A DNA stretch of 64,000 nucleotides from Planctomycetota bacterium (GTDB lineage: Bacteria > Planctomycetota > UBA1135): contig SHNF01000009.1 in the NCBI GenBank assembly GCA_004295085.1, positions 620,001 to 684,000 of the forward strand, in the 5' to 3' direction. This document shows, piece after piece, positions 37,270-40,420 of the stretch. The position numbers were made by a program, and so were the translations under genes. The notes under the pieces were generated by a model. That model searched no databases and was not told the origin of the DNA. It saw only the letters and a program-made list of their open reading frames with translations. The stretch's first letter is position 1; each line of letters starts with the position of its first letter.

Positions 37270-37785
37270 ATGAAAGCCTCCTCCACCCTCACTCGCCCCG
37301 CGCCGCGCAAGCTGGCAGGGGAGACCGGCCCCGCCGCCGAACTCGCCCGCGGCCTCGCCGGCGTCCTCGCCGACACATACAGCGTCTACCTTCTCACCCA
37401 GAACTACCACTGGAACGTCGAGGGCCCGCACTTCGCGGAGTATCACGCGCTGTTCAACAAGCAGTACGACGAGCTGGCCGGGGCCGTGGACGAGCTCGCG
37501 GAGGCCATCCGCTCCATGGGCTACTACGCCCCCGGCACCTTCGCGGAGTTCAGCGAGCTGGCCTCGGTGAAGCAGCCCTCCGACAACCCGGACGCCGTGG
37601 AGATGGTGCGGCGCCTGCACGACGCGCATGACCAGGTTCTGCGCCGCATCGGCGATGTGCTGCCGCTGTCCGAGGCCGAAGGCTTCGAGTGGGTCAACGA
37701 CCTGCTGGTGCAGCGCCAGGACGCTCACGGCAAGGTGCGCTGGATGCTGCGCGCGACCCTGGGCAAGGGCTCGCAGCGCCTGTGA
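37270..37785 (+). CDS. dps: Dps family DNA-protection ferritin
   Basis: This predicts 171 residues. Dps hallmarks are present: LLTQNYHWNVEGPHFAEYHALFNKQYDELAGAVDELAEAIRSMG carries the interfacial ferroxidase residues (His in YHWN and FAEYHALF, Asp and Glu in YDELAGAVDELAE). The subunits should form a 12-mer that oxidises iron with hydrogen peroxide and shields DNA. There is no ribosome site before the ATG; TATCTT lies only 10 bases upstream (37254-37259), so the message may be short-leadered or leaderless, or rely on readthrough from the vWA operon. It converges on the lipoprotein gene with a 19-bp gap. Confidence 0.92.
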   Translation: MKASSTLTRPAPRKLAGETGPAAELARGLAGVLADTYSVYLLTQNYHWNVEGPHFAEYHALFNKQYDELAGAVDELAEAIRSMGYYAPGTFAEFSELASVKQPSDNPDAVEMVRRLHDAHDQVLRRIGDVLPLSEAEGFEWVNDLLVQRQDAHGKVRWMLRATLGKGSQRL

Positions 37786-37804: not shown

Positions 37805-38293
37805 CTAGGAATCCGCTCCCGCGAGCGCGGTCTGCGGCGGGTGGAACGGCTCCAGGACGCGCCAGCGGCGCCGCGCTGCGCCGGTTTCCGCCGGCGCCGG
37901 GCCGCGCAGCGGAAAGGACTGATTGGTGGGCAGGAACACGACGCGGCCGTCGCGCACCTCGCTGGCGGCCTCGACCTCGATGCCGCCGAGTCCCATGTTG
38001 TTGCGGATGACGCCGTCCGCCAGGACCCGGAAGTCCAGCGGCTGCGGTGCCGGCACGCGCACGCGCGCGATCTGTCGGTCCAGGTCGATCTGCGGAGTGG
38101 AACCGTACAGGTCCCGGAGGAGCTTCTCGAAGCCGAGAAGCTCCTCGTTTCACGTTCAGCCTTCCAGCTGGATCTCGAGGAAAGCGAAGTCGTTCGCGCC
38201 AGGCCGGACTTCCGCGCCGGGAGCGGAACAGGCGGCGAGCGGAAGCAGCAGCAGGAAGAGGAGGAGGGCGAGGATGAGAGGCCAGGATCGCAT
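37805..38293 (-). CDS. Lipoprotein with paired in-frame UGA codons, HMA-like fold (candidate selenoprotein)
   Basis: The frame from ATG 38293 to TAG 37805 has 163 codons. The N-terminus is a lipoprotein signal, LLFLLLLPLAAC (Cys22). Codons 46 and 48 are TGA (38156-38158 and 38150-38152), giving ...FLEIQLEG-U-T-U-NEELLGFEKLLRDLYG; both flanks have full coding character, and the second half cannot start by itself until a GTG 26 codons further on. The pattern (strand, GxTx motif, helix, strand IARVRV, helix FRVLADGVI, strand IEVEA) fits a heavy-metal-associated (HMA) fold. The U-T-U would lie where GMTCxxC usually sits, and this fold call is inference. A perfect 13-bp hairpin follows the second UGA after three bases. 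It lies 4 bp downstream of the barrel gene, so one operon. If the UGAs are not recoded, it is a pseudogene. Confidence 0.55.
38117..38146 (-). other. Perfect 13-bp hairpin after UGA, SECIS-like
   Basis: In the mRNA sense the sequence is GAGGAGCUUCUCG, loop GCUU, then CGAGAAGCUCCUC. All 13 pairs are Watson-Crick, inside the coding sequence. It begins three bases after UGA codon 48, with the loop 16 bases past that UGA and 22 past the first. Bacterial SECIS elements are hairpins directly after the UGA with a small apical loop starting with G, so position and loop fit the general pattern. The loop lacks the GGUC of the enterobacterial element. No U-tract follows, so it is not an intrinsic terminator. 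Confidence 0.5.
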
Positions 38294-38297
38294 GGGC

Positions 38298-39182
38298 TCA
38301 GAAGCGTAACCCGAGGTTGACGAATCCGGTGAAGTCGGGCGCGAGCTGGGTCTCGTTCACGCGCTCGTACACGGGCAGCTCCACTCCTGCCTGGATATCG
38401 AGGGAAGGCCGCGGCCGGAACGCCCAGTTCAGGCCGACCGTGACCCGCTCGCCGCCCGTGGCTCCGACGCCGGCGCCGAACTGCTCGTCGCGGGCCGCCC
38501 AGCGGTAGCGCAGCAGCAGGTCGGCGCGCATGAAAGGGCCTGGGTAGGGTTCGAGCCAGAATCGGTTGCCGGCCGCCAGCTCCGCGAAGACCTCGTCGCC
38601 GAAGGCGTAATCGGCGCCATTCTCGCCGTTCGCCTTGTAGAGCAGCGCCGCATTGAAACGCCAGCGGTACGGCTCGTAGGTGGCCGCCGCCCCGAGCATG
38701 GGATCCCAGGAGCCGGATCCGGGCTGGATCTCCGGCGGGACGAGCACGCCGCCGTCTCGTTCGTCGTCCGCGCCCGTCGGCGTCTCCAGCGCGCCCAGCA
38801 CCGCCAGGTTGAGGGCCTTGTGCGGAGCGTCCCAGCGATGGAAGCGCCATTTCGCGAACGCCGCGAGGTCACCGGGCCCGCTGGCCGCCAGGCGGCCGCC
38901 GGCGCCTTCCAGCTCGCGGAACTCGTAGGGCAGCACCACGCTGAGCTGGAGGTCGTGCCGCAGGCCGTAGTGGGCGCTCACCTGCAGCTCGTGCCCGGTC
39001 TGCGAGCGCCGCATGGGATCCGCCACTTCGTCGCCACCACGGAGCAAGGTGGACTCGCGCTGGTACTGGTAGCCGAGGTTCAACAGCCAGCCGCCGTCAT
39101 AAAGCGTTTCTCCGTCCAGGAGATCGAGCGTTCCCTCCTGCGGCGCGGCCGCCAGGGCGAGGAGCAGCCAGAAGGCGGTCAT
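38298..39182 (-). CDS. Outer-membrane beta-barrel transporter-like protein
   Basis: This predicts 294 residues. A short signal peptide (MTAFWLLLALAAAP) is followed by alternating amphipathic strands such as WLLNLGYQYQRES, HELQVSAHYGLRHDLQLSVVLPYEF and RVTVGLNWAFRPRPSLDIQAGVELPVYE. The chain ends in FVNLGLRF; a terminal Phe is the classical outer-membrane insertion signal. It resembles the meta-pathway phenol-degradation-like/transporter barrel family, whose substrates vary. It is the first gene of an operon with the paired-UGA lipoprotein (4-bp gap) and is divergent from FIST across 53 bp. A joint role in metal or small-molecule handling is inference. Confidence 0.75.
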   Translation of the reverse strand: MTAFWLLLALAAAPQEGTLDLLDGETLYDGGWLLNLGYQYQRESTLLRGGDEVADPMRRSQTGHELQVSAHYGLRHDLQLSVVLPYEFRELEGAGGRLAASGPGDLAAFAKWRFHRWDAPHKALNLAVLGALETPTGADDERDGGVLVPPEIQPGSGSWDPMLGAAATYEPYRWRFNAALLYKANGENGADYAFGDEVFAELAAGNRFWLEPYPGPFMRADLLLRYRWAARDEQFGAGVGATGGERVTVGLNWAFRPRPSLDIQAGVELPVYERVNETQLAPDFTGFVNLGLRF

Positions 39183-39235
39183 CGGAGCGCGCGGGCGGCG
39201 GCAGATACGGTAACATTGCATGGGGGCGAGAGAGG

Positions 39236-40420
39236 ATGAAAGTGCCCGGCCGAGTGTGCGTCGCCGACGGCCTGTCCACGCGGGCCGACGCCGCGGACGC
39301 GTCGCGCGAGGCGCTGGAGTCCGTCGCGGACCGCATCGGCGCCAATCCGGACCTGGCACTGGTCTTCATCACGCCGCACCACGCGGCGCAGGCGCATCGC
39401 GTGCTCGAGGACCTGCGCGGCATCCTCGGCGCGGACGTCGTGGTCGGCTGCACGGCGTCGGGCGTCATCGGCGCGGGGCGCGAGGTGCAGAGCGGGCCGG
39501 GCCTGGCGGTGTGGAGCGCGCGCCTGCCGGGCACGCGCGTGCAGGGCTTCCACTTGCGCCTGGAGGAGACCGAGGAGGGCAATTTCGTGCGCGGCTGGCC
39601 GGAAGTAGGCCCGGACGTGAGCGCGGTGCTGCTGGGCGACCCCTTCAGCTTCCCGGTGGAGCCGTTCCTGGCCTCCTTGCGCCGCGAGAAGAAGGCGCCG
39701 ACCCTGGTCGGAGGCCTGGCCAGCGGCGCCACGCGGCCCGGAGGCAACCGCTTCTTCATGGATGACCGCGTGTTCGACAACGGCGCCGTCGGCTTCGTCA
39801 TCGCCGGGCCCATGCGGCTGCAGCCGCTGGTGTCGCAGGGCTGCAAGCCGGTGGGCAAGCCCTTCGTGGTCACCCGCTGCGAGCGCAACGTCATCTACGA
39901 GCTGGGCGGCGCGCCGGCCTACGACGGCCTGGGCTCGGTGCTGGCCGAGATGGACGAGGATGAGCGGCGCCGCTTCTCGCGTGCGCCGCAAGTGGGCCTG
40001 CGCGCGGCCAGCGACCCCGGCTCCAAGGACGGCAGCGGCGGCTACTTGATCCGCGGCCTCATGGGCGTGGACCGGCGCAGCGGCGCCGTCGCGGTGACCG
40101 ACCACGTGTACAAGGGCCTGGAGCTGCAGTTCCACACGCGCGACGGCGCCAGTGCCCACGAGGAGCTGCAGAGTCTGCTGGCGCTGGCCAGCGCGCTGAA
40201 CCCGGAGTCCGAAGGCGCCCTGCTGTTCTGCTGCAACGGCCGCGGCGTGGACATGTTCGACTCCCCGGACCACGACGTGGGCGAAGTGCGCACCTTCTTC
40301 CCCGGCGTGCCCGCGGTGGGCATGTTCGCCGCCGGAGAGATCGGGCCGGTCCTGGGCCAGCCGTACCTGCACAGCTTCACGGCCAGCCTCGGCTTCCTGG
40401 TGCAGGCCGCCGGAGGCTAG
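39236..40420 (+). CDS. FIST (N and C) domain sensory protein
   Basis: This predicts 394 residues. FIST_N is seen as ALVFITPHHAAQAHRVLEDLRGILGADVVVGCTASGVIGAGREV (about 42-86) and TLVGGLASGATRPGGNRFFMDDRVFDNGAVGFVIAG. FIST_C ends the protein with GALLFCCNGRGVDMF and PAVGMFAAGEIGPVLGQPYLHSFTASLGFLV. FIST domains bind small ligands, probably amino acids or relatives, and are usually joined to kinases or methyl-accepting proteins. Here it stands alone, so any signalling partner is elsewhere. Its stop codon overlaps the stop of the convergent FG-GAP gene in the tetranucleotide CTAG. Confidence 0.9.
   Translation: MKVPGRVCVADGLSTRADAADASREALESVADRIGANPDLALVFITPHHAAQAHRVLEDLRGILGADVVVGCTASGVIGAGREVQSGPGLAVWSARLPGTRVQGFHLRLEETEEGNFVRGWPEVGPDVSAVLLGDPFSFPVEPFLASLRREKKAPTLVGGLASGATRPGGNRFFMDDRVFDNGAVGFVIAGPMRLQPLVSQGCKPVGKPFVVTRCERNVIYELGGAPAYDGLGSVLAEMDEDERRRFSRAPQVGLRAASDPGSKDGSGGYLIRGLMGVDRRSGAVAVTDHVYKGLELQFHTRDGASAHEELQSLLALASALNPESEGALLFCCNGRGVDMFDSPDHDVGEVRTFFPGVPAVGMFAAGEIGPVLGQPYLHSFTASLGFLVQAAGG

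Follow-up and report, generated by a model that had tools for sequence, protein, structure and literature searches.

The minus-strand gene at positions 37,805–38,293 of the window (the whole stretch of 64,000 nucleotides analysed here) probably encodes an exported, lipid-anchored protein with a heavy-metal-associated (HMA) fold and two genuine selenocysteines, which has an outer-membrane barrel as partner and would use its selenolates to capture a soft metal, most likely Hg(II). We lean slightly towards the broader proposal that it represents a new selenoprotein family widespread in the phylum, consisting of a diselenolate U-x-U HMA lipoprotein and a barrel that would act as a mercury (soft-metal) trap, with one SECIS serving two UGAs. 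If this is true, the prokaryotic selenoproteome gains a family with a U-x-U motif, in which selenium provides a pair of ligands for a metal at the cell envelope. With relatives linked to mer genes, a defence against mercury by means of selenium can be tested directly, and the UGA-x-UGA-hairpin cassette constitutes a compact natural system in which to study how two neighbouring UGAs are decoded from one bacterial SECIS.

Gene layout and the two UGA codons

The features of the locus, with the evidence on which each is based, are the following.

37805..38293, minus strand: predicted double-Sec HMA-like lipoprotein gene, 162 aa, ATG at 38293 and TAG at 37807-37805 (sequence, and about 40 loci with both TGA)
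38228..38293, minus strand: predicted signal peptide and lipobox LAAC with lipidated Cys22 (sequence; Cys22 invariant in alignments A1 and A3)
38156..38158, minus strand: UGA codon 46, very probably the first selenocysteine, aligning with Met of GMTCxxC
38150..38152, minus strand: UGA codon 48, very probably the second selenocysteine, aligning with Cys1 of GMTCxxC
38117..38146, minus strand: SECIS-like hairpin, 13-bp stem 38146-38134 / 38129-38117 and loop GCUU 38133-38130 (folding, shuffles, covariation, bSECIS limits)
37967..38185, minus strand: predicted HMA-like beta-alpha-beta-beta-alpha-beta domain, residues 37-109 (AlphaFold2 pLDDT ~95 over most of it; Foldseek Atx1/CopZ; hhalign HMA)
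37856..37966, minus strand: predicted C-terminal beta-strand extension, residues 110-146 (AlphaFold2 strands 111-114, 117-120, 125-128 and 142-146)
38298..39239, minus strand: upstream outer-membrane beta-barrel, Phenol_MetA_deg-like (PF13557, E 7.7e-12; start uncertain, likely the ATG near 39182)

Read on the minus strand, the lipoprotein frame is interrupted solely by TGA at codons 46 and 48, in the motif GUTUNEE. This reproduces the open frame with U-T-U of a preliminary description of the locus, which named no strand; the plus-strand reading of 37805-38293 is meaningless. The lipoprotein signal noted there is also confirmed, a hydrophobic leader being followed by the lipobox L-A-A-C22, and all details of the description that were open to checking proved correct. 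In the C-terminal extension, T-x-Q is conserved among the UxU members of alignment A1.

A search with the window protein gave 14 homologues in 100 related genomes, and the frame of each contains two TGA, no more and no fewer, at the places of codons 46 and 48. A class-wide profile search has matches in 31 of 154 genomes (30 with two TGA, the 31st being a partial match), and a phylum-wide one in 60 of 392. About 40 loci from many families of the phylum, with 38 distinct DNA sequences among them, retain both UGAs, as U-T-U, U-I-U or U-V-U followed by N/S-E/D, and U-[TIV]-U is preserved down to about 21–30% identity. Two named relatives are Planctomycetota MAGs. Alignment of the homologues at the two codons, which had been proposed as a check, gives UGA at both and Trp at neither in any homologue seen, while the place of U48 is taken by Cys1 in the CxxC and CxxU relatives L080, L081, L082 and L086. 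At the place of U46, no Cys was seen in the CxxC/CxxU relatives; the residue there is Met, Val or Leu.

Absence of sel genes together with Trp in the homologues had been named as the outcome that would speak against recoding. Instead, selA (447–450 bits), selB, tRNA-Sec and selD were all found in the window's genome (4.1 Mb). The tRNA-Sec scores 71.2 bits against an Rfam cut-off of 47 and is also called as tRNA-SeC by ARAGORN; selD adjoins it, and selA lies just upstream of selD. The selB gene, above cut-off, is located elsewhere in the genome, and the C-terminal end of the SelB model matches nearby in an ORF of equal length. With its UGA read through, SelD begins MFGKAKRLTEYASCAGUAAK and is thus a predicted selenoprotein itself, SCAGUAAK presumably being the expected Sec-containing active-site loop of this known selenoprotein family. 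ORF callers start this selD (~8685–9718 in L010, on G000:C6 near 260.7 kb) late, at GTG 8744 and past the in-frame TGA, because the true start precedes that TGA. Since SelD contains a UGA, the organism very probably decodes UGA as Sec elsewhere too.

A selA match is present in all 31 genomes of the phylum that have a two-TGA member (weak in G414), compared to 276 of 392 overall, with a Fisher p of ~1e-5 that ignores the kinship among the genomes. The phylum was used for this comparison because nearly the whole class has selA, so that a class test says little. A genome-wide reassignment of UGA to Trp or Cys was also considered and rejected, as UGA serves as the stop codon of other genes in the window, the barrel gene and the Dps-like gene among them. 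Taken together, the conserved UGAs, the sel machinery and the RNA-level selection on the hairpin discussed below make Sec decoding near certain. We infer from these that Sec is inserted at both sites, and the in-frame UGAs very probably specify selenocysteine at codon 46 as well as at codon 48.

The hairpin downstream of the UGA codons

The perfect 13-bp stem and four-base, G-first loop that had been described after the UGAs were found again, the hairpin starting 3 nt after UGA48 (spacer AAC, 38149-38147). Folding of the 84-nt region yields -40.6 kcal/mol, a z of -4.6 relative to 200 dinucleotide shuffles, none of which is as stable. It is important to point out that the codons of the stem are also conserved as protein. 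Conservation of the RNA had therefore to be separated from that of the protein, for which synonymous-codon shuffles were chosen. The window hairpin is more stable than all 300 of its synonymous shuffles (z -3.97, p 0.003, the lowest attainable value). For the 38 members, p<=0.05 is obtained in 22 with a mean z of -2.0, as compared to 10% and a mean z of -0.24 in 190 control windows of the same genes. Within the clade that contains the window protein, 17 distinct sequences were compared. In these, 89% of the stem pairs are standard and both partners of a pair have changed in 17 cases, a number that none of 500 shuffles reaches; the pairing falls to 30–57% when the partner strand is slid by 1–3 bases. 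These covariation and shuffle figures are strong, but they are no formal probabilities, as the sequences behind them are related.

An Rfam search gave no match at the hairpin, and the published limits for bacterial SECIS elements were used instead: a loop of 3-9 nt, a stem of 4-16 bp, a G in the first two loop bases, a UGA-loop distance of 16-37 nt and an MFE <= -7.5 (PMC13188914). The window hairpin, with its 13-bp stem, its 4-nt loop (G first) 22 nt beyond UGA46 and 16 nt beyond UGA48, and its energy of -25 kcal/mol, lies within all of them for both UGAs, in line with the bacterial SECIS model that had been suggested for it. When a crude fold is used, all limits hold for UGA46 in only 26 of the 38 members, and many members have a distance of 15 nt between UGA48 and the loop, a borderline value. 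In the window, with spacing, loop and stem inside the published ranges, the position of the one hairpin suits both UGAs.

Predicted fold, metal site and known families

The window protein has no family above cut-off in Pfam and NCBIfam and no match to the Pfam HMA family (PF00403), which gives weak matches in 3 of 23 scanned members. The AlphaFold2 model calculated with the family alignment has a pLDDT of 87.6 and consists of strand 37-44, helix 49-63, strands 68-70 and 75-80, helix 88-97 and strand 101-109, followed by the beta extension. In Foldseek, it is closest among PDB entries to Atx1, CopZ and further HMA domains (E ~0.01, TM 0.70-0.73 by target length). In hhalign, the UxU-only alignment A1 matches an HMA alignment with a probability of 93.5% and an E of 2.3e-7, and the broader A3 profile matches ATP7B (the best PDB sequence), CopZ and, weakly, MerP. 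The prediction of an HMA fold of the beta-alpha-beta-beta-alpha-beta type, first made from the letters of the DNA, is thus supported by AlphaFold2, Foldseek and hhalign. A single-sequence AlphaFold model of the UxxU relative L056 reached a pLDDT of 46 and was left out.

The suggestion that U-T-U stands in place of the metal-binding Cys motif holds in part. In hhalign, E-G-U-T-U-N-E-E is paired with E-G-M-T-C-D-G-C, which puts U48 at Cys1 as suggested. However, U46 falls on Met and Glu51 on Cys2, such that the classical GMTCxxC motif is absent from the window protein (G-U-T-U-N-E-E, with Cys2 changed to Glu) and the CxxC pair is not replaced as a pair. The second classical Cys being lost, a MerP-like linear site is not simply retained. 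As judged from the alignment, the Sec pair appears to be shifted within the loop relative to an ordinary CxxC/UxxU site.

The distant relatives share the layout of the window protein (exported, HMA, mostly with the barrel upstream) and show a series of motifs: GVTUPIU in L056, L083, L084 and L114, GMEUSPU in L118, VAUPVU in L117 and KUMGU in L115, and, with Cys, GVTCPIU in L080, GMVCNLU in L082 and GMVCNLC in L081. In the tree, the U-x-U members form a well-supported clade of 15, which includes the window protein, and a group of 19, separate from the UxxU, CxxU and CxxC sequences; the deeper order is weakly resolved. One genome has a second copy beside its U-T-U copy (L102, G345:C22:1171618-1172076), with U-L-S and thus Ser for the second Sec; the first Sec alone may serve here, or the copy may be decaying. 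A divergent relative (L079, G334:C79:4044-4547) has a single in-frame TGA and the motif GGUGSR.

Among known kinds, the UxxU metal-binding (seleno)protein NF041115 comes closest, being likewise HMA-like with two Sec in the metal-site loop. It differs in having UxxU at both Cys places and a 74-position model that is without the lipoprotein leader and C-terminal extension of the window protein. This model gives no match (E<=0.01) for the window protein and for 22 of the 23 scanned members, and one match far below its cut-off of 95; the UxxU relative L056 reaches 16.8 bits. MerP (TIGR02052) shares the exported HMA fold, and a CxxC relative of the window family lies in a mer operon, but the window family is lipidated and has U-x-U for CxxC, a C-terminal beta extension and a barrel partner. 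Against the TIGR02052 cut-off of 92.55, the window protein has no match, the best Sec member (L048) scores 17 bits and the CxxC relative 32. The MerT/CopZ fusion-like heavy metal transport selenoprotein NF045683 is also a selenoprotein with an HMA part and a role in metal transport; it is, however, a membrane transporter of different layout, with weak matches to members of the window family. The copper chaperones Atx1 and CopZ have the predicted fold in common, but are cytosolic, with an MxCxxC site and no Sec.

A table from 2026 that covers 119 families of prokaryotic selenoproteins (PMC13188914) does not contain the U-x-U motif, and no model of NCBIfam release 20.0 matches the U-x-U family above cut-off. 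A full-text search for UXU with selenocysteine, in which preprints were outside the coverage and subscription literature was sparse, found UXU described for selenoprotein P. This animal protein is stated in a 2025 review to bind Cd2+ via CXU, UXC or UXU motifs (PMC11818150), but is an unrelated plasma protein with a Sec-rich tail and eukaryotic decoding. U-x-U proteins are easily missed, since standard annotation would end the gene at codon 45.

Gene neighbourhoods and candidate function

The barrel gene ends with a TGA located 4 nt before the lipoprotein ATG. The previously noted operon with an outer-membrane barrel is thus confirmed in both the upstream ORF and its arrangement, and a barrel homologue lies directly upstream in nearly all loci of the family, including those of UxxU and CxxC relatives. 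The window neighbours are on the opposite strand, a FIST-domain gene at 39236-40420 (+) and a Dps/ferritin-like gene at 37270-37785 (+).

The mer context varies by locus: it is absent in the window, partial for the U-T-U member L094 and complete for the CxxC relative L106. In the latter (genome G348), the order is MerR-family regulator, thioredoxin-like, barrel, CxxC HMA, DF-family, MerT-HMA, second HMA and MerA, and this MerA (TIGR02053) scores 559 bits against a curated cut-off of 454. The mer layout of L106:4995-10245 is unusual in that it includes a dedicated outer-membrane component, the barrel, the CxxC HMA protein and the homologue of a DF-family (seleno)protein (NF049942) lying between MerR and MerA. 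In L094 (G007, a genome from the family of the window's genome), a MerR-family regulator (PF09278) overlaps the barrel, which is followed by the Sec lipoprotein and, downstream on the same strand, by a metal-sensitive repressor and a zf_CopZ-MerT-HMA fusion. MerR- and MerT-like genes are also neighbours of the UxxU members L109, L110 and L117.

No mer gene adjoins the pair in the window, and in the window's genome a CopZ-MerT fusion was not found and the MerA-like matches are all below cut-off. The mercury reading is therefore one of association via relatives. Neither the window protein nor the CxxC relative has a match in a plasmid collection.

The preliminary description had left the choice between a selenium-based metal site and a redox site. 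The neighbourhoods of the relatives favour the former, with Hg or another soft metal, and redox chemistry is kept as a rival. We consider metal capture rather than redox to be a fairly confident reading, and infer the metal itself from these neighbourhoods, which give mercury an even chance of being the main one. In the proposed mechanism, the barrel-lipoprotein mRNA would be translated, yielding the lipoprotein together with the barrel. SelB and Sec-tRNA, held by the single hairpin, would decode both UGAs (22 and 16 nt from the loop), with SelA, SelB, tRNA-Sec and SelD as the machinery. The protein would then be exported and lipidated, and its final location would be periplasmic or at the outer membrane. 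There, a soft, selenophilic metal, likeliest Hg(II) and possibly another thiophilic one, would be bound by the paired selenolates, which are predicted to lie where strand 1 ends and helix 1 begins. The bound metal would be held or handed on.

The alternative that fares best is a double-Sec redox protein, an enzyme of thiol/disulfide or peroxide chemistry built on an HMA-like scaffold, in which U-T-U would cycle between diselenol and diselenide or react with an outer-membrane substrate. Many known selenoproteins are indeed redox proteins (PMC13188914), the Cys2 ligand is missing, and the U-L-S copy with one Sec left would suit catalysis as well as binding. However, the fold is HMA and not thioredoxin, and UxxU and CxxC relatives occur in MerR-MerT-MerA loci, which makes this scenario unlikely, if a serious competitor.

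Another option is that the capturing site serves copper or silver, the protein being a chaperone or scavenger with Cu(I) or Ag(I) on U-x-U. The nearest solved folds are copper chaperones, the best PDB sequence for the A3 profile is ATP7B, and the gene next to the G007 member contains zf_CopZ. On the other hand, selenium is especially avid for Hg, and the clearest operon, that of L106, has a MerA above the curated cut-off. We therefore regard copper or silver in place of mercury as distinctly unlikely.

It is also conceivable that only one UGA is decoded efficiently. Most translation would then stop at UGA46 and give a short peptide, the full protein being made only when selenium is plentiful. 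Bacterial Sec insertion is inefficient in general, and here a single hairpin would have to serve two UGAs separated by one codon. Against this, the sequence after the two UGAs is strongly conserved, and the distances of both from the loop fall inside the 16-37 nt range or close to its limit, and we find this scenario rather improbable. Finally, Trp codons mutated to TGA, a pseudogene or an assembly error, which had been listed as alternatives to recoding, can be dismissed: an in-frame TGA is usually a stop, as it is for the barrel of the same operon, but the same two TGA recur in about 40 loci of separate assemblies with coding sequence conserved on both sides, relatives lacking the UGA have Cys and never Trp at the aligned place, and the sel machinery is complete.

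Two further observations concern the surroundings of family members. In L100 and L103, a second, partly matching barrel-like stretch is located ~1-2 kb further upstream. Near the UxxU member L109, an arsenite-methyltransferase-like gene (L109:3006-4481) suggests a metalloid as well as a mercury context.
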